In this document: positions 12,151-32,511 of the stretch, piece by piece
How the letters are laid out: every line of letters begins with the position of its first letter
Numbering within the stretch: position 1 is the first letter of the stretch
Program-made: the position numbers and the translations under genes
Notes under the pieces: generated by a model
What the model saw: the letters and a program-made list of their open reading frames with translations, nothing else
The model's database searches: none
What the model was told of the DNA's origin: nothing
Assembly (NCBI GenBank): GCA_950096985.1
Contig: CATNBA010000001.1
Coordinates: 124,001-188,000 of the forward strand
DNA from: an uncultured Candidatus Melainabacteria bacterium
GTDB taxonomy: Bacteria; Cyanobacteriota; Vampirovibrionia; Gastranaerophilales; Gastranaerophilaceae
DNA: 64,000 nucleotides
Direction: 5' to 3'

Positions 12151-14025
12151 TTATTTCAACCAACTTTGCGGAGTGTGAATCCAGCTTTCAGGGTTCTGAA
12201 CAAGACTTGCAGATTGTTGGGTTTCTGCTTTTGTGAAATTCTGCGTTGCTTGCAAATCTTCCAAATATCTAACATTGAGAAGGTCTGCTGCTAAAGAAGC
12301 ATAAACTTCGCAATCCAAAAAGTGATTGTTTATATGTGATGTTTTCGGCTGCCATATAAAACCGCCGTTTTTTGCAGGAACTTTTTCTTCAGAACAAAGT
12401 TGCTCTGCATATTCTTCGTCACAACCATTGAACACCATGAAAGAACCTCGACCATTCGAGCGGTTCAGACGGGCTGCAATCATATCTTTATATTGACCGC
12501 CGTCAACAATATAAAGTCGCAAGCCGTGTGCTTTTGAATTTACTCTGTCAATCATGCTGACTTTAAAACGTGATAGCATAGGACGGCTGCTCCCTTTTAT
12601 CGGAACAAGCCAGTCTTGAGCCATTGCACAAAGGTCATAAACATCGTCAGTCTGGTCGCCTGAATCTATCGCAGCAAGGTTGACTTGAACAAACTCCCCG
12701 CTTTCTTTTTGAAAAGCTCTGTTCATTATCGCTTCAAGTTCCGACCACGAGAACGTTTGTCCGTGAGTTATTCCCCACGATGTCATATATGCTCCCCACG
12801 CTCTTATTGCGTAGTAGAAACAATCTTTTTGAACGTCAATTCCTGCGGTCAAAATTTGAGCAGCGTCAGGAATGATATTTTCTTCAAGCCCTGTTTGTCT
12901 ATCAAGCACGACCTTTGAATTCATTTTGACTTCTGTCTGTTCCCACGGTTCAGCAAGCCAAGAATTGACAAAGTTCATCAATTTTTCAGGGAAATTTTTT
13001 GACCGCGTAAATTCGTAAGCAACGTCACCGAATGAAACCCACGGAGAATATATTGCATTGATTCGGAATGCAATTTTTCTTTTTCGTTTTTTTATTTTTT
13101 CGTAAACTTCGCCCGTGTCAATATCTTTCCAAACTCCAGCCCGCAGCATTGACTGTTTGTGACGGTCTGTTATTTTTTGACGACAATGTTCACATTCATA
13201 GTAAGCAGTTTCTTTTCTTTCATCTGCTGTTTTTGCGTCTTTGTCCCATTTTATGCCGTTTTTAAACTTGAAAGTTTGAAAGTGTCCGCAGTGCGGGCAT
13301 GGGACATAATATTCAAAGCGACGGTCCGCAGCGAGCCAAATCTTCCAAATTGCCCCGATTTTTGTTGTCGGAGTTGAAGCTGCAAAAGAAAATTTGTCAG
13401 CCTTGAAGGTCATTTGTCTTTGTTTAGCAAGTGAAATCGGATCAGCTTCTTTTCCTGAAAAAAGCGGATATTTGTCAACTTCATCAAACAAACAATTTTT
13501 AATCGGTTTTGAAGCAAGGCTTGACGGAGAATTTGCTCCGCTAAAATATACACTTGCACCATTTTTGAAATTCAATTCAGAAAGTTTTGAACCTTGTTCG
13601 TCCCATTTTTCCTTCAGGTCAGAATTCAAACGAATCATCGGTTGAATTCTTTTTGCTGAAGAATAGTCTGCAAGGTCTGTTGTCGGAAGAACAATCAAGT
13701 TTGATGTTGCTTCCTGTGCGACAGCATAACCGACCATGTTGTTGAGAGCTTCTGTTCCTCCGACCTGTGTCGGTTTAACAAACCCGACTTCCTCAACATC
13801 AGGGTCATTGTATGTGTCCATGATAACTTTTAAATAAGGGGTTCTTGATGTGTTCCATTTGCCCGGTTCTGCATTTTCAGAACCAAGAATTCTGTTTTTG
13901 TCTGAATAATCGCTGACAGAAATTTGTTCAGGCGGTTTAAGAGTTTTAAGGGCTTCTTTTATCCAAGAAGGCGGAATGTATTTCCCGGCTTTATTCTTTG
14001 ATTTTTTTGTTTCCTTTTGCTTCAT
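12151..14025 (-). CDS. Terminase large subunit (gpA family)
   Basis: 624 residues from ATG at 14025; a TTG four codons earlier is an alternative. The GpA ATPase motif (VGFVKPTQVGGTEALNNMVG, about 80-100) gives the nonclassical Walker A, and IKNCLFDEVDKYP gives the Walker B. A zinc-binding CPHCGH...CEHC cluster lies at about 242-280. The nuclease domain begins near residue 390 (TAGIDVQKDCFYYAI) with the first metal-binding Asp. The enzyme cuts concatemers at cos sites and drives packaging. It overlaps the small-subunit gene by 35 bases, so the two are probably translationally coupled; its own ribosome site is weak. Confidence 0.95.
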   Translation of the reverse strand: MKQKETKKSKNKAGKYIPPSWIKEALKTLKPPEQISVSDYSDKNRILGSENAEPGKWNTSRTPYLKVIMDTYNDPDVEEVGFVKPTQVGGTEALNNMVGYAVAQEATSNLIVLPTTDLADYSSAKRIQPMIRLNSDLKEKWDEQGSKLSELNFKNGASVYFSGANSPSSLASKPIKNCLFDEVDKYPLFSGKEADPISLAKQRQMTFKADKFSFAASTPTTKIGAIWKIWLAADRRFEYYVPCPHCGHFQTFKFKNGIKWDKDAKTADERKETAYYECEHCRQKITDRHKQSMLRAGVWKDIDTGEVYEKIKKRKRKIAFRINAIYSPWVSFGDVAYEFTRSKNFPEKLMNFVNSWLAEPWEQTEVKMNSKVVLDRQTGLEENIIPDAAQILTAGIDVQKDCFYYAIRAWGAYMTSWGITHGQTFSWSELEAIMNRAFQKESGEFVQVNLAAIDSGDQTDDVYDLCAMAQDWLVPIKGSSRPMLSRFKVSMIDRVNSKAHGLRLYIVDGGQYKDMIAARLNRSNGRGSFMVFNGCDEEYAEQLCSEEKVPAKNGGFIWQPKTSHINNHFLDCEVYASLAADLLNVRYLEDLQATQNFTKAETQQSASLVQNPESWIHTPQSWLK

Positions 14026-14530
14026 ATACACCGTCAATGCTCAATTGCTCAAGAACGCTTGCTGTTGTTTCTGAAACAAGTTTGCCAATTCTGCGAGCTT
14101 CAGTTTCTTCAACCAAGTGCGACAAATCAGCAGCAATTTTTCTTGAAAAGCCCAGCATTGACCGTTTAAGAACAACGAGAAAACGCTGAAGTTCTTCAAC
14201 GATTTCGCCTTTTGCAATGTAATCACCTTGAGCAATTTTGTTCTTCAGGTTTAAGGCTTCAAGCTGTGCTTCTTTGACTTTTCCGTCATAATAGGTTTTT
14301 TTCTCTGAAATGCTCATTTTGTCAATGTCATTTTCTGTCATTGCTTTGAAGGAAGCATTTCTCCAGTCAAGAACATCTTTAATCGACCACCAGCCCCGCT
14401 GAACTTTCGGACACCCTCTTTCCGCCCAGCGAACAAGCGTTGATTCGTTTACGTCAAGTATTTCATATAATGCGGAAGTCGAAACGCAAACTTTGCCAGC
14501 AATTATTTTCACGTCTTTTTCTTTTGCCAT
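13991..14530 (-). CDS. Terminase small subunit (Nu1-like)
   Basis: 179 residues. The N-terminal winged helix-turn-helix (VCVSTSALYEILDVNESTLVRWAERGCPK followed by GWWSIKDVLDWR) is typical of Nu1/MerR-like DNA-binding domains, and the middle is a helical oligomerisation region. In lambda-type phages this subunit binds cosB. The start ATG lies just eight bases after the U tract of a terminator hairpin and has no Shine-Dalgarno sequence, which is unusual for this prophage. Confidence 0.88.
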   Translation of the reverse strand: MAKEKDVKIIAGKVCVSTSALYEILDVNESTLVRWAERGCPKVQRGWWSIKDVLDWRNASFKAMTENDIDKMSISEKKTYYDGKVKEAQLEALNLKNKIAQGDYIAKGEIVEELQRFLVVLKRSMLGFSRKIAADLSHLVEETEARRIGKLVSETTASVLEQLSIDGVYEAKGNKKIKE

Positions 14531-14590: not shown

Positions 14591-15112
14591 CTAAACTTTT
14601 GAAAGTTGCAATTTTTCAATTTTGCAACCTGAATGAATTTTTTCGGAATTGTGTCCCCAGCCTTGCTCATTGATATATCTTGCACGCTGCGTGTAATTGT
14701 CAATAACTTTTCCATAACACAAGTCAATATTTTTTGCGAACGGAATTCTTTTGACTGGTTCTTTTTGCGGCTGTCTGATTCTGATTTTTTCTGTTTGCAT
14801 TAGAAAATCGGTTGCAGCATTGAGAATGATTTCATTCCCTGTTTTCGGGTCAATTTTACCTGTGTGAATGTTATCTTGCAATTTTTCAACAGTAAAAACT
14901 TTCATTTTGCCGTTTGCAGCACGTCCGAAAAATTTATTGTGAACCTTTATACAATAACACTTTTTGCAAAGCAGAGTTTCAACAACTTGTTTGACAACTT
15001 TGCTTTCTCCGATTTTCTTCTTTGTAAAATTACGAATCAAATCTGTTTCAATACATTGAAAAGTTTCAATATCGTTTTTTGAGTATTTCACCCCGCAGCA
15101 TAAAAAAGACAT
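14591..15112 (-). CDS. Unrecognised Cys-containing protein, first gene of late operon
   Basis: 173 residues, basic, with a CC pair at residues 5-6 and a C-K-K-C-Y-C cluster near residue 49 that could bind zinc. Not recognised. It is the first gene after the probable late promoter at 15172-15205 and is followed by a terminator before terminase. That position (before packaging genes, behind its own promoter) is where some phages place late regulators or small HNH endonucleases; neither an HNH motif nor a helix-turn-helix is clear. The start has AAGGAATT upstream; stop is TAG. Confidence 0.65.
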   Translation of the reverse strand: MSFLCCGVKYSKNDIETFQCIETDLIRNFTKKKIGESKVVKQVVETLLCKKCYCIKVHNKFFGRAANGKMKVFTVEKLQDNIHTGKIDPKTGNEIILNAATDFLMQTEKIRIRQPQKEPVKRIPFAKNIDLCYGKVIDNYTQRARYINEQGWGHNSEKIHSGCKIEKLQLSKV

Positions 15113-15171
15113 AGCAATTCCTTATTTAACAAGGTAGGCTTTCAAGGGCTGAAAACCTCTTGTCATAAACC

Positions 15172-15205
15172 ATTATAAATGATTTTAGCGTACCCGTCCG
15201 GGTAC
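15172..15205 (-). promoter_or_regulatory. Probable late promoter: TATAAT -10 with palindrome at the -35 position
   Basis: On the leftward strand a consensus TATAAT (15172-15177) is preceded, at the usual -35 distance, not by TTGACA but by the inverted repeat GTACCCGGACGGGTAC (15190-15205). This lies directly after the terminator of the early operon and before the first late gene. A palindrome replacing the -35 box suggests activator-dependent or operator-controlled transcription. The regulator is unknown; the LuxR-type protein at 17243-17461 is one candidate. Confidence 0.6.
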
Positions 15206-15206
15206 A

Positions 15207-15234
15207 AATAAAAAAAGCGACCTGAAAGCCGCTT
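15207..15234 (-). terminator. Terminator of the early (leftward) operon
   Basis: Leftward RNA forms AAGCGGC-TTTCAG-GTCGCTT followed by a run of T. One G-U pair in the seven-base stem. It separates the early genes from the late promoter. Confidence 0.85.
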
Positions 15235-15262
15235 CTTTTATAGGTTTACAATGCTTAACAAA

Positions 15263-17242: not shown

Positions 17243-17461
17243 CTACATCATAAGTTTTGACATTTCGATTTTGACAATTTCTCGAACAAGAACAGCTCGT
17301 TTTGTTTCTGCTGGTCCTTTAATCCCGAAATACTTATATATTACTTTCAGATCTTTTTTGATTTTGTCCACCGAAAAGCAAAGCTGGTCTGCAATTTGTT
17401 GATTTGTTTTGCCTTCAATTAGCAAAGTAACAATTTCTTTCTGTGTTTCTGTTAGTGTCAT
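17243..17461 (-). CDS. LuxR/GerE-type helix-turn-helix regulator
   Basis: 72 residues, essentially just the DNA-binding domain: LTETQKEIVTLLIEGKTNQQIADQLCFSVDKIKKDLKVIYKYFGI matches the GerE helix-turn-helix pattern (LT-x-x-E/Q...L-x-x-G-x-x-N-x-x-I-A...S-x-x-T/K-V). No sensor domain. Such stand-alone domains regulate transcription in phages and spore formers. Candidate for control of the late promoter palindrome at 15190-15205, though no direct evidence links them. Confidence 0.85.
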   Translation of the reverse strand: MTLTETQKEIVTLLIEGKTNQQIADQLCFSVDKIKKDLKVIYKYFGIKGPAETKRAVLVREIVKIEMSKLMM

Positions 17462-17485: not shown

Positions 17486-18358
17486 TTAGAACGGAATATC
17501 ATCATTCAAATAGCGTTCAGGAATTCCGCTTTCCAGTACGTCATGAACATCAAACGAACACTGCGGAACAACAAGCGAATCAATATGCAAAACAAAAACA
17601 GATTGTTGTTCTTTTTTTGCAACTGCTTTCGCGTCTTCAAGTGCCGTTTGATAATTTTTATATACTTTGTTCGGGCTTCCTTTTTTTGGATTAAAAACAA
17701 GATAATTCGGGGTTTTTGTCTTGAAGTCCTTGAATATATTTTTGTCTTGTTGTTTTCTTAATGTTTCAATTCTTTCAAAAATTTCGTCAAATTCTGTTTC
17801 GTTCGGAACAAAGGCAATGTCAAGAGCATTACATAATTTTGTTTTTATTGTCTGTATATCATTCGCATGCATTGTTGCAAGCTCTTGAATTTTTGAACAC
17901 ATTTTTTGATTGTCATTTTGCAAATCATCATTGACAATTCTGTAAACTTCCTGCATTTCACTTTCAAGCAAAGTGCAGTCGTGCTGATCCAGCATATAAG
18001 AAAATAATTCTTGATAGGCTGGAGAAATTTCTGTTTTTTCTTTTGCAGAAGCAGCTTCTCCCGGAACAGTTTCTTCAGGTTGAATTTCTTCAGCTGAAAC
18101 AACTGTTGTTGCTTGTTCATAACCTTGAAGAAAATCAACGAGAATCTGCTGTTTTTGTTTTTTGTCTGCCCCATAATCGACGAATTTTCCGACAACTTCA
18201 TATATTGTTTTTCTGTTACTTTGAGCATATTTGAGAGAAATTCCGCAATTGTGAGCAGTATCAACAACGGAATCGCCGTCAAGCATACTTGCAAGAACCA
18301 TTTGTTCTTTTTCTGTCAGTTCATTTTTAATCTGTTGAAATATCTTTTGCTTGTTCAT
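17486..18358 (-). CDS. Helix-turn-helix protein with SSB-like C-terminal tip
   Basis: 290 residues. The N-terminus (LTEKEQMVLASMLDGDSVVDTAHNCGISLKYAQSNRKTIYEVV) looks like a helix-turn-helix of the sigma/LuxR type. It is followed by an acidic linker resembling the linker of the 15596-15979 protein (PEETVPGEA). The last residues are NDDIPF, the signature of the single-stranded DNA-binding protein tail that docks partner proteins. No OB-fold is apparent. The start overlaps the upstream stop (TAATG) with AAAGGGG ahead of it. Possible role in replication or transcription linked to host SSB partners. Confidence 0.65.
   Translation of the reverse strand: MNKQKIFQQIKNELTEKEQMVLASMLDGDSVVDTAHNCGISLKYAQSNRKTIYEVVGKFVDYGADKKQKQQILVDFLQGYEQATTVVSAEEIQPEETVPGEAASAKEKTEISPAYQELFSYMLDQHDCTLLESEMQEVYRIVNDDLQNDNQKMCSKIQELATMHANDIQTIKTKLCNALDIAFVPNETEFDEIFERIETLRKQQDKNIFKDFKTKTPNYLVFNPKKGSPNKVYKNYQTALEDAKAVAKKEQQSVFVLHIDSLVVPQCSFDVHDVLESGIPERYLNDDIPF
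18055..18091 (-). repeat. Partial third copy of the linker-coding cassette
   Basis: Resembles 15727-15763 at most positions (shared CTTCTCCCGGAACAG and TTCTTCAG blocks). Encodes the EETVPGEA linker in the helix-turn-helix/SSB-tip protein, matching EEPVPGEE in the 15596-15979 protein. Confidence 0.7.
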
Positions 18359-21092: not shown

Positions 21093-22076
21093 TCATTCTC
21101 CTTTGATAATTTGTGCATATAATGTTTTCATACTCTTTCCGTCCTTGCGTGGAGCATAGTCTTCAAAAGAAACTGCTTTTTGCAAGAACATATTGTTCGA
21201 CCAGTGTTGAAGGTCCGTCAAAAATTGCGGGTGTGTTCCTTTGCGGTAAATCATCACATAAGGGGAATAACCCAGTTCAAGGACCTTTTTCACGCGAAAA
21301 TAGTCTTCTTTAAGAGTTGTGTTGAAATTTGTCAAAATATAAACTCTTTTGAAGCGATCACTTTTGTTGAAGTGTTTCGCAAAAATTTTCAAACCTTTGA
21401 GAATTCGTTCTTCATTTTTCATTAAATCGAACGCAAAATGCACCATTTGAATTTTTGTTTGTGCAAGTAATTTCGCAATATCATCATCAATAAGCCTTGC
21501 GTCAAGCCCTTGAGTGTAATCGATAACAGCTCCGCTTTGAATTAACTGTTTGATGAGTTCTTCTCTATCTTTGCAAGCAAGTATATTTGCGTCATAAAGT
21601 TTTATTGTTTTTTGACCGTTCCAAAACTCCTGAAGGTCTGCAACCTTTCTACAACAAAGACCGTCTTTTTTTGAAACAATGCAAAATTCACAATTATTCG
21701 GACAACCACGCGTCAAGAAACCGCAAGCAATATTCTTTGTTTTTTCGCCATACAAAGAATAATCAGGAAACATTGATTCAATTTCTTTCGGAAGACTTTT
21801 GTCTTTTTCTTTGTTGTAAACCTCTTTGTTATTTTCAACAGATATTGCGAACCCGCTTCCACCGAATTGAATTTCGTCTGCCGTTGGAAAATAAATCAAC
21901 GGATTGATAGTTTTTAAATCAAGATTGAAAATTTTTGAAATATAAACTTTGTCAAAATGCTCGAAATAATTATCAACAAATTTGACTTCGTCACCCTGCT
22001 TCTTATGAAAAGCAGAAATTTTCATCAAAGGAATAGAAGGGCTGTCTGTATCTGCAAGCAAACCAATTTTCGCCAT
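21093..22076 (-). CDS. Radical SAM enzyme
   Basis: 327 residues. The cluster-binding motif is CPNNCEFC (C-x3-C-x2-C) near residues 124-131, preceded by ACGFLTRG as in B12-type radical SAM proteins. Before it, an N-terminal region begins IGLLADTDSPSIPLMKISAFHKKQGDEV, resembling the start of cobalamin-binding domains but shortened. Later a YTQGLDARLIDDDIAKLL segment fits the TIM barrel. Substrate unknown; phage radical SAM genes are frequent in gut viruses. It starts one base into the stop of the adenine methyltransferase gene (TAATG), a close pairing that suggests joint action on DNA or nucleotides, which is inference. Confidence 0.85.
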   Translation of the reverse strand: MAKIGLLADTDSPSIPLMKISAFHKKQGDEVKFVDNYFEHFDKVYISKIFNLDLKTINPLIYFPTADEIQFGGSGFAISVENNKEVYNKEKDKSLPKEIESMFPDYSLYGEKTKNIACGFLTRGCPNNCEFCIVSKKDGLCCRKVADLQEFWNGQKTIKLYDANILACKDREELIKQLIQSGAVIDYTQGLDARLIDDDIAKLLAQTKIQMVHFAFDLMKNEERILKGLKIFAKHFNKSDRFKRVYILTNFNTTLKEDYFRVKKVLELGYSPYVMIYRKGTHPQFLTDLQHWSNNMFLQKAVSFEDYAPRKDGKSMKTLYAQIIKGE

Positions 22077-30500: not shown

Positions 30501-30941
30501 ATGAAAAAAATATTGTTATCACTTATAATATTTTTAATCGCAGCAACAGCAGCACATGCAACCGCAACTGCGGAAATTCAGAATTGCGATGTAAAAACTT
30601 ATAAAGATTTTATTGTCCGAAAGTATATGACAAACGGTTTTTGTGTCCAGTTCCCGAATGAATATTCTCTTGTTGCTTCAAAAGAAATCAGTGGAGCAGG
30701 AACAAAAATGCTCATGAAAATGGTTGCAGGAACACGAACAAATAATCGTCTTGAAGCTCAAGCAAATTACAATTTCATTCAAAGTGGAAAAAATGTTCTT
30801 GTTCAACTGACAATTGTTTCTGTTTCAGATTCGGGAACAACTTTGCAAAAAATAAGAAATGCAAACCCGCAACAGGAAATCAACGAGCTGAACGCAGTCA
30901 ATGCTGAATTTATAGGAAATTTAAACAATGATAAAAAGTAA
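30501..30941 (+). CDS. Small exported protein in the lysogeny module (candidate conversion gene)
   Basis: 146 residues with a clear signal peptide (KKILLSLIIFLIAATAAHA, cleavage after AHA). The mature part has two Cys (NC and FC) and Ser/Thr-rich beta segments. Not recognised. AAGGAG precedes the ATG. It lies between ImmA and the integrase, is transcribed with them and overlaps the integrase start by 14 bases. An exported product made in the lysogen could alter the envelope or block superinfection, by analogy with known conversion genes. Confidence 0.7.
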   Translation: MKKILLSLIIFLIAATAAHATATAEIQNCDVKTYKDFIVRKYMTNGFCVQFPNEYSLVASKEISGAGTKMLMKMVAGTRTNNRLEAQANYNFIQSGKNVLVQLTIVSVSDSGTTLQKIRNANPQQEINELNAVNAEFIGNLNNDKK

Positions 30942-32511
30942 AAAGAAACAAAAAAAGCAGCCCGGAAAAAGGGCTGCTCTATATGGAAGATTTTCTCCCG
31001 GACCAAATCAACGCGAAGAATCAATCACGGGACAATTTCGCGAAGGGGAATTGCTTTGCGAAAAAAACGGCTGGAATATTGTCTTGCGATATGCAGACAG
31101 GTCATTGACAGGAAGAACTGACGACCGTCCTGAATTTCAAAAGATGATAAAAGACGCAGAAGCTGGACTTTTCGACATACTTGTTTGTTACAAAACAGAT
31201 AGATTTGCACGTGACAGGCTTGACGCTGCAATCTATAAAAACAAATTAAGAAAATATGGGGTTCGTGTTGTTTATTCAAAAATGTCAATTCCTGAAGGTC
31301 CTGAAGGAATTATTCTTGAATCTGTTCTTGAAGGTCTTGACGAATATTATTCAAAAGACCTTTCTCAAAAGATTTCAAGGGGTTTTTATGATAATGCTTT
31401 GCAATGCAAAGCTGTCGGCGGAACTGTTCCGTTCGGATATTATATTGACGAAAACGGAAAATATAATATTAACCCCGAACAAGCTCCCATTTTAAGAGAA
31501 ATTTTCATTCGTTATGCTTCAGGAGAAAGAGCAATTGACATTTGCAATGACTTAAACGAGCGGGGTTTCCGTACTAAAAAAGGAAACTTATTCGGAAAGA
31601 ATTCGCTTCGAGGTTTTTTCAAAAACTCAAAATATATGGGAGTTTATCAATTTGAGAGCGGGGACGAAAACTTTGAAGATGTTTCAATTGAAGGCGGAGT
31701 TCCTGCAATCGTTGACAAGGAACTATTTGAAAAAGCTGCAATGCGTCTTAAAACTAACCAGCGAAAAACGCAAAGCATTGATTTTCCGCCACCTGTTTTT
31801 TATCTTTCAGGAAAAATGTTTGACGCTGTTTGTGGCGGGGCTTTCATAGGTGATAGCGGAACGAGCAAATCAAAGAAAAAACATTTCTATTATACTTGCC
31901 AAAACAAAAAAGCAAGAAAAGGTTGCAAGACAAAATCAATCAGAAAAGACTTCATTGAGGATCTTATAATCAGCTATACAAGCAAATATGTTTTGACTGA
32001 AGAATTTATTGAATACATTGCAGAAATAATTCTTATGCTTCAGGAAGAAGAAAAAGACACAAGCGTTCTCAATTCAATAAAAGCTGAATTAAACACAACA
32101 AAAACAAGCCTTCAAAATATCATGAAAGCAATTGAACAAGGAATTTACACAGAAACAACAAAAACAAGATTGCTTGAACTGGAAGACCGACAACTGCAAC
32201 TTGAAACACAATACAAAATTGAAGAACTGAAAATCCATGCTCCAAAAATTGAAAAAGATTTCATTGAATACAAATTCCGAAAATTAGCAAACGCAAATAT
32301 TGAAGACCACGAAACAAAAGAATGGATTGTCAATATGTTCATTCAATCTGTTATTTTGACAAACGATTCAGCCATAATTGCGTATAATTTTGCACCGACT
32401 GAAGACTATTCTGACACCGTCGAAATTGATTTTCAGACATTAAAAAACTCACTGAACAAAAGTGTTCGAGTGAGTTCTTTAAACTGGAGGTTAGGAGATT
32501 CGAACTCCTGA
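30928..32511 (+). CDS. int: Large serine recombinase (integrase)
   Basis: 527 residues. N-terminal resolvase domain with catalytic Ser near residue 23 (AALYGRFSPGPNQREESITGQ) and later VCYKTDRFARDRLDA. Then the recombinase domain (VGGTVPFGYYID, KNSLRGFFKNSKYMGVY), a zinc ribbon (C...C...CQNK..KGC), and a coiled coil (about 385-440). The last nine codons lie inside tRNA-Ala, so the C-terminus depends on the attachment site. It would catalyse attP x attB recombination. Terminators for the tRNA lie inside its 3' coding region. Confidence 0.95.
   Translation: MIKSKKKQKKQPGKRAALYGRFSPGPNQREESITGQFREGELLCEKNGWNIVLRYADRSLTGRTDDRPEFQKMIKDAEAGLFDILVCYKTDRFARDRLDAAIYKNKLRKYGVRVVYSKMSIPEGPEGIILESVLEGLDEYYSKDLSQKISRGFYDNALQCKAVGGTVPFGYYIDENGKYNINPEQAPILREIFIRYASGERAIDICNDLNERGFRTKKGNLFGKNSLRGFFKNSKYMGVYQFESGDENFEDVSIEGGVPAIVDKELFEKAAMRLKTNQRKTQSIDFPPPVFYLSGKMFDAVCGGAFIGDSGTSKSKKKHFYYTCQNKKARKGCKTKSIRKDFIEDLIISYTSKYVLTEEFIEYIAEIILMLQEEEKDTSVLNSIKAELNTTKTSLQNIMKAIEQGIYTETTKTRLLELEDRQLQLETQYKIEELKIHAPKIEKDFIEYKFRKLANANIEDHETKEWIVNMFIQSVILTNDSAIIAYNFAPTEDYSDTVEIDFQTLKNSLNKSVRVSSLNWRLGDSNS
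32446..32476 (-). terminator. Rho-independent terminator of tRNA-Ala within int
   Basis: On the leftward strand: AACTCACT-C-GAACA-CTTT-TGTTC-AGTGAGTT followed by TTTTTT. It begins nine bases past the tRNA 3' end and overlaps the integrase's last coding segment. It also works in the other direction, though with a weaker U tract. Confidence 0.85.
32485..32511. other. Probable attR core (tRNA 3' end shared with integrase end)
   Basis: The 27 bases shared by the tRNA-Ala 3' part and the integrase C-terminal codons (through the TGA stop). A phage carrying this segment would rebuild the tRNA on insertion. The partner attL copy would be expected outside the window; no second copy was noticed inside it. 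Confidence 0.55.

Follow-up and report, generated by a model that had tools for sequence, protein, structure and literature searches.

The T4 middle promoters, with their MotA box, and the promoters of lambda CII carry an activator site in place of the -35 box beside a good -10, and the put RNA of phage HK022 folds into a structure at the beginning of its transcript. Both are parallels to the locus described here, with the qualification that MotA and CII are proteins unrelated to its regulator LuxR72, and that for the put RNA the likeness to its hairpin is one of position at the transcript start. Three further systems belong here. ComA of Bacillus subtilis binds a pair of inverted hexamers, for which a spacer of 4 nt is optimal (PMC4797271). 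Ltr of Phi13, which belongs to the RinA/Ltr late regulators known from phages of Gram-positive bacteria, is described as a small regulator of the early cluster which drives the packaging-structural operon (PMC13123087). For the gene transfer agent (GTA) of Caulobacter, the literature reports a promoter with a near-perfect palindrome between the -10 and -35, a putative site of GafZ, which is an antiterminator with a sigma-like HTH (PMC11150451). How are late genes controlled in the phages of Gastranaerophilales? A literature search on phages, GTAs, LuxR late promoters and leader RNAs, taken from its search results only, found no description of phage late-gene control in this group.

The window (the whole stretch analysed, 64,000 nucleotides of an uncultured Candidatus Melainabacteria bacterium) is part of contig C1 in a genome of 1.65 Mb. 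A prophage spans about 0.2 to 32.5 kb of it; on its minus strand run the early operon, at about 28.8 to 15.3 kb, and the late genes, which extend from 15.1 kb downwards. The names of its genes are partly our assumptions: the ORF at 30928-32511 is presumably recombinase-like and the large terminase gpA-like, and 21093-22076 in the early operon, with its cysteine motif, we take to be a radical-SAM-like protein. The features on which the argument turns are these:

17243..17461, minus strand: LuxR72, a 72-aa solo GerE (LuxR-type) protein by Pfam GerE, the proposed operator-binding dimer
15209..15240, minus strand: intrinsic terminator closing the early operon, with a 13-bp stem, -14.3 kcal/mol and z -5.3 against shuffles
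15190..15205, minus strand: proposed operator, the inverted repeat GTACCC-GGAC-GGGTAC, kept in relatives as an in-place 6-4-6 repeat
15172..15177, minus strand: -10 element TATAAT, with neither a -35 hexamer nor TGn, read from the sequence
15165, minus strand: putative transcription start (+/- 2), placed 7 nt after the -10
15129..15163, minus strand: conserved 5'-terminal RNA hairpin (CM R1 45.4 bits, E 8.9e-11; covariation; MFE folds)
14591..15112, minus strand: late1, the first late gene, for a 173-aa Cys-rich protein with homologues in 33 of 383 family genomes
13991..14530, minus strand: terminase small subunit, terS (PHROG 57, E 8.2e-15)
12151..14037, minus strand: terminase large subunit, terL (relatives at 46-86% identity)

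Read along the minus strand, the terminator (AAGCGGCTTTCAGGTCGCTTTTTTT) is followed by GTACCCGGACGGGTAC, 12 nt, TATAAT, the late1 ORF, terS and terL. The sequence thus confirms the layout given in the earlier note, namely an early terminator, a palindrome at the -35 position, a consensus TATAAT and the first late gene. Terminator-like hairpins precede the operator in 6 of the 8 phage-type loci scanned (the window, L002, L003, L004, L079 and L080); the one in L015 is weak, and L081 has none. The palindrome at 15205-15190 has perfect arms of 7+7 bp around a central GA. Given a start at 15165, it reaches from -40 to -25 with its centre at -32.5, and covers the position of the -35 hexamer.

We propose, with a probability of about 0.72, that the palindrome is the operator of the late promoter, that a LuxR72 dimer activates this promoter, which lacks a -35 box, and that the conserved 5' hairpin acts on the mRNA or on the polymerase. 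The site looks like the phage's late-gene switch, because relatives keep it in step with a LuxR-type protein and because the RNA starts with a conserved hairpin. The steps of binding and activation, the start site and the role of the hairpin are what we infer from such comparison. LuxR72 would be made from the early operon, and its dimer would bind the palindrome with each subunit on one 6-bp half-site, the two half-sites being 4 bp apart. In the position where a -35 box would be touched by sigma region 4, the dimer would recruit RNA polymerase to the strong TATAAT, and late1, terS, terL and the structural genes would be transcribed only once LuxR72 has accumulated. The transcript would open with the hairpin, at about +3 to +37, which may act on the late mRNA or the polymerase.

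How does this arrangement compare with the described systems? LuxR72 resembles the ComA/NarL/FixJ type in its GerE HTH and in its proposed site, a pair of inverted hexamers spaced by 4 nt (PMC4797271), and ComA is among its nearest solved structures (2krf, 3ulq). It differs from ComA in that it consists of the HTH only, without a receiver domain, and uses a different half-site; moreover, the window operator lies at -32.5 on a phage late promoter, not upstream of the polymerase site. With RinA/Ltr it shares the position of a small early-cluster regulator for a packaging-structural operon (PMC13123087). However, those proteins have about 130 aa against 72 for LuxR72, and Phi13 Ltr has four direct repeats from -107 to -42 while the window has one inverted repeat over the -35. 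The PHROGs matches of LuxR72 are a transcriptional regulator, RNase E and a sigma factor, and judged by these names none is RinA or Ltr. The likeness to GafY/GafZ is that of an activator and an antiterminator at the promoter of a structural cluster, with a palindrome between -35 and -10 (PMC11150451). By description the window system differs from it, consisting of a solo GerE protein and a 5' RNA hairpin.

Is the palindrome more than a chance repeat? One could read it as a chance palindrome or a by-product of the neighbouring terminator, with no regulatory role. The 64-kb window has further palindromes of equal size, several of them terminator-like, so a lone palindrome proves little; it is more than chance because it is conserved in place in relatives. 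Homologues of late1 were gathered from viral contigs, named genome contigs and whole genomes (the 33 of 383 family genomes), giving 32 distinct upstream regions, which are mutually related and so not independent observations. A 6-4-6 inverted repeat with at least 5/6 arm pairs was found in 25 of these 32 regions, all from Gastranaerophilales phages and prophages, and in the 25 it lies 11-12 nt upstream of the -10 (13 in L047). The scripted count was 27, since L028 and L086 pass by chance. In 200 rounds of dinucleotide shuffling the repeat appeared in a mean of 3.0 and a maximum of 8 of the 32 regions, and perfect arms, present in 19 regions, reached a shuffled maximum of 2. The remaining regions either have degenerate repeats (L015, L040, L050), or TTAGAC sites arranged otherwise (L083/L084), or none (L028, L086). 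The half-site itself varies among at least six sequences (GTACCC, TTATCC, TGAGCC, ATAGCC, CTGTCC, GTGTCC), and both arms change symmetrically, as expected of a dimer's operator. Conservation in place and symmetric change in 25 of 32 regions, against the shuffled maximum of 8, leave the reading as a chance palindrome with almost no probability. The proposal of the earlier note that the palindrome would suit a dimer operator replacing the -35 box has held up, for relatives keep the repeat while its sequence changes, both arms together. Loss of the palindrome where the flanking genes stay had been named beforehand as evidence against it, and what was found is the repeat kept in the 25 regions. 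The search for the palindrome elsewhere, also suggested there, found the exact form only once in the host genome and in none of the other 192 relatives searched. The observation is correct and the palindrome very probably functional.

The missing -35 box is likewise brought out by comparison. The hexamer at -35 spacing in the window is CGGACG, with 3/6 matches to TTGACA, and at least 5/6 matches at a spacing of 15-19 bp occurs in none of the 28 late1 promoters taken into this test, in which five second-cassette rows had no upstream sequence. An extended -10 (TGn) is present in 27 of 33 promoters. Neither a good -35 nor TGn is found in the window, L002, L003, L004, L079 and L080. A protein at such a site could also be a repressor: LuxR72 or a homologue at -40 to -25 would block polymerase until removed or titrated. 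The centre at -32.5 overlaps the core promoter, which is a common repressor position, and promoters with the extended -10 could work with neither an activator nor a -35 box. Yet the gene for LuxR72 belongs to the early operon, the usual place of late activators such as RinA/Ltr (PMC13123087), and in the window-type promoters, which have neither -35 nor TGn, little basal activity would be expected, so that repression would not be needed. We therefore consider repression unlikely, though not negligible. Activation by LuxR72 is favoured in our reading because a promoter with only a -10 would need help and because the regulator is an early gene, as is Ltr of Phi13.

Which protein would bind the site? 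The LuxR-type domain that the earlier note saw in the early operon is real, since LuxR72 matches Pfam GerE (PF00196) with 29.5 bits against a cut-off of 23.5 (E 5.7e-7); it has the GerE domain only, and also matches Sigma70_r4_2 below cut-off. Its gene is in the same early operon, 2.1 kb upstream of the promoter with several ORFs between. Homologues of LuxR72 are encoded upstream of late1 in L003, L004, L015, L079, L080, L081, L083 and L084. In L015 the gene ends just ahead of the promoter, and in L079 and L080 it is close upstream. Adjoining LuxR72 in the window is a 290-aa early protein (17486-18358) with an N-terminal GerE-like stretch (NCBIfam MctR, E 0.0079, below cut-off), which could be a second regulator. 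In the genus g6 no LuxR72 homologue was found near the late1 cluster; a solo GerE protein of less than 100 aa has its gene at another place in the genome. Such a short protein is present in 23 of 25 cassette-bearing g6 and g19 genomes (not found in G376 and G362), and in 4 of the 16 cassette-free genomes of the comparison set, where the three that were read have ordinary response-regulator-like helices. A chromosomal GerE regulator of the host might bind the site in place of LuxR72, and the phage would listen to a host signal: the short GerE candidates of g6 are all encoded away from the cluster, and the window's host has 12 GerE profile matches. Against this, the phage-type loci have a LuxR72 homologue beside the operator, and the recognition helix of the window LuxR72, SVDKIKK, fits the TACCC class of half-sites described below. 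We regard a host regulator as very unlikely at this site.

The comparison of recognition helices with half-sites bears on the same point. A helix S-x-[D/E]-x-[I/V]-K-K is found in 13 of the 14 regulators whose half-sites are both TACCC; the exception, G334, has S instead of D/E. Among the 16 other regulators an acidic S+2 occurs in two (G343, G324), and both keep one TACCC half-site. This table of 13/14 against 2/16 gives p 2e-5 with kinship ignored. Other helices go with other sites: SEATVKK/CESTVKK with TTATCC, SLASLKR with TGAGCC, SKGKIKK with TAGCC, and S[IK]RNIKYH with CTGTCC. In a partial Mantel test on 29 of the 30 pairs (G380, one of two identical regulators, was left out), helix and operator are correlated given the rest of the regulator (r 0.57, 0/5000 permutations), while the rest of the regulator against the operator given the helix yields 0.12. 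For G295, G357 and G380 the regulators were read first, and the operators looked up afterwards were as expected. A tree-aware test on a 52-column tree with few resolved branches allowed about 5 changes per trait, and independent pairs were not significant, so the covariation of helix and operator is phylogenetically not secure. Genomes with two cassettes have the same half-site class in both (13/13); for example, G282 has the asymmetric GTACCC..GGCTAC in both. These matching half-sites may come from recent duplication or conversion of the copies. Taken from comparison, the link between LuxR72 and the palindrome is supported by the neighbourhood in relatives, the helix-operator covariation and the ComA-like 6-4-6 geometry.

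The second part of the arrangement is the hairpin, which opens the late1 leader in all 32 regions except L028. Generally it has an outer stem of at least 5 bp, one base opposite three (mostly A/UAC, A/CAC or C/CAA), then GGU/GCC or UGU/GCA and a variable apical stem. In the window the outer stem has 5 bp, followed by an internal loop of A opposite UAC, GGU/GCC and the apical stem. Among 29 hairpins (26 distinct), delimited by hand in a way that favours pairing, a bias which shuffles and slid controls soften but do not remove, 128 of the 130 outer-stem cells of the distinct ones are paired; when the 3' arms were redealt in 2000 rounds, the mean was 99.7 and the maximum 112. The hairpin of L052 was delimited separately and that of L084 by its 3' arm. 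In an alignment of 12 sequences, 96.8% of cells pair and two-sided changes occur at 8 of 13 pairs, with slid controls below 50%. The hairpin begins 26 nt after the operator in the window type and mostly 24 nt in g6 (L024 with 23, L047 with 27 and L049 with 37 are exceptions), and this fixed distance points to the 5' end of the transcript. In the 383 family genomes R1 has 29 matches at E 1.1e-7 or better in 17 genomes, 12 of them with exactly two, and all 29 strong matches have the operator/-10 context; these counts are lower bounds since R1 misses long apical stems. At E 1e-5 R1 found none outside the family in a class-wide draw of 335 genomes, and the hairpin is absent from 16 TerL-relative loci without late1 (L005-L014, L016-L021). 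Rfam 15 has no family at the hairpin, the best overlapping match being Fibro-purF with 17.1 bits against a gathering score of 60. Eleven weak CM matches, at E 2e-5 to about 3e-3, were inspected; the cassette is present only in G385, and G335, G307, G280, G056, G334, G442, G078, G041, G203 and G293 were set aside. The earlier note mentions neither the 5' hairpin nor the prophage-like second use of the module.

What would the hairpin do? The site might be a place where an antiterminator of the Q/AlpA/GafZ kind is loaded: a sigma-4-like HTH protein would bind at the promoter, board RNA polymerase and, together with the hairpin, carry it through terminators along late operons, which are long. The palindrome of the Caulobacter GTA promoter, a putative GafZ site (PMC11150451), is in line with this, as are the match of LuxR72 to Sigma70_r4_2 below cut-off, the fixed distance of the hairpin from the -10 and the terminator-like hairpins which directly follow it in some relatives. 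However, LuxR72 has just 72 residues with a GerE domain only, the window leader has no terminator between hairpin and late1, and one g6 promoter with operator and TATAAT (L316) has no hairpin. We find antiterminator loading quite unlikely. As a separate observation, relatives such as L023, L024, L047, L083, L086 and others have, just downstream of the 5' hairpin and ahead of late1, a second hairpin whose loop resembles AACURUG or CGGUGUG and which sometimes has a T-run after it. We gave up reading it as a terminator in every case, since the T-runs are inconsistent. The window has no separate second hairpin, and the ribosome site and ATG (15112) occupy that place.

The gene behind the hairpin, late1, has no match in Pfam, PHROGs or NCBIfam. 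Its AlphaFold model is beta-rich with a mean pLDDT of 74.8 and a poor C-terminus, and has no fold match at E 0.001 in PDB or BFVD. Conserved cysteines (Cys5, Cys6, Cys49, Cys54) suggest that the protein may bind metal. As the first product of the hairpin-led transcript, late1 could, speculatively, be a candidate for binding the hairpin. In g6 loci such as L025, L046 and L056, ATATATACTTCAA is kept just upstream of the late1 ribosome site and may serve as a further -10 or as an RNA element. Distant late1-like genes in other prophages (L310-L315) have in most cases a different conserved leader, with CAGGTTAGTTCAATCGGGAACGGTACCGAG in several, and mostly, not far away, a separate gene for a small HTH protein of about 105 aa; operator and hairpin are absent at five distinct ones (six loci, of which L310 and L313 share one upstream sequence).

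The module is also found beyond phages. In the genus g6, late1 stands at the head of a phage-like cluster with host genes around it, and 12 of the 383 family genomes have two strongly scoring hairpins, placed ahead of structural operons in a cluster that resembles a gene transfer agent. The second cassette of G102 leads to a head/packaging operon (minor head protein, HK97-type capsid, terminase), followed by late1 and tail genes, and that of G074 to tail J and endolysin genes; host genes flank both clusters. Pieced together from these two genomes, the cluster keeps an HK97-type capsid, portal, PBSX-type terminase, tail J and endolysin. At the cluster loci L034 (G102 C32:1-18000), L044 and L221 (G074 C7), each structural operon is led by the operator/-10/hairpin module. 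Upstream of the operator in many g6 cassettes (L052, L096, L097), a word GTCAATA / TTGTCAATA is repeated at a variable distance of 8-22 nt. Judged by its genes, the cluster resembles a former prophage, now a chromosomal and possibly GTA-like element that has two late operons. Both g6 promoters drive structural genes, and this favours reading the window site as a late promoter as well. A tentative extension, for which we see perhaps one chance in three, is a portable late-gene module common to phages and a domesticated GTA-like cluster of gut Gastranaerophilales, with a regulator relocated in the chromosome and coevolving with both promoters: a solo GerE activator would replace the -35 contact, and a new RNA at fixed distance, bound by polymerase or late1, would serve antitermination or late-mRNA control.

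A scan for the pattern gave a different sort of result. TACCC-N4-GGGTA-N(11-14)-TATAAT occurs in 88 stretches of viral contigs, one of which has the hairpin (L133, on the contig of L002), and no LuxR72 relative was found at 1e-3 in L101-L188; the pattern alone is not specific. GTACCC-N4-GGGTAC in G074 C2 and its orthologue in G315 C91 (L094:1501-1516, L317:1516-1531) has no -10 or hairpin at the usual spacing, and the gene that follows, the same in both genomes, we take to be phosphomutase-like. In G223 C18 (L316:1991-2006) there is a third promoter of that genome with operator and TATAAT and no hairpin, before a gene that is presumably NYN-like.

What does the site mean for the biology of these bacteria? 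Gastranaerophilales are a non-photosynthetic lineage of the cyanobacterial branch in which phage late-gene control is apparently undescribed, and the site offers a testable switch with a named protein. The natural series of operator-helix pairs would be useful for decoding GerE specificity, and the 5' hairpin, with its covarying pairs, may represent a new RNA family associated with late promoters. In one genus the module also flags a cluster of prophage origin with two operons, so that GTA production by these uncultured bacteria becomes directly testable.
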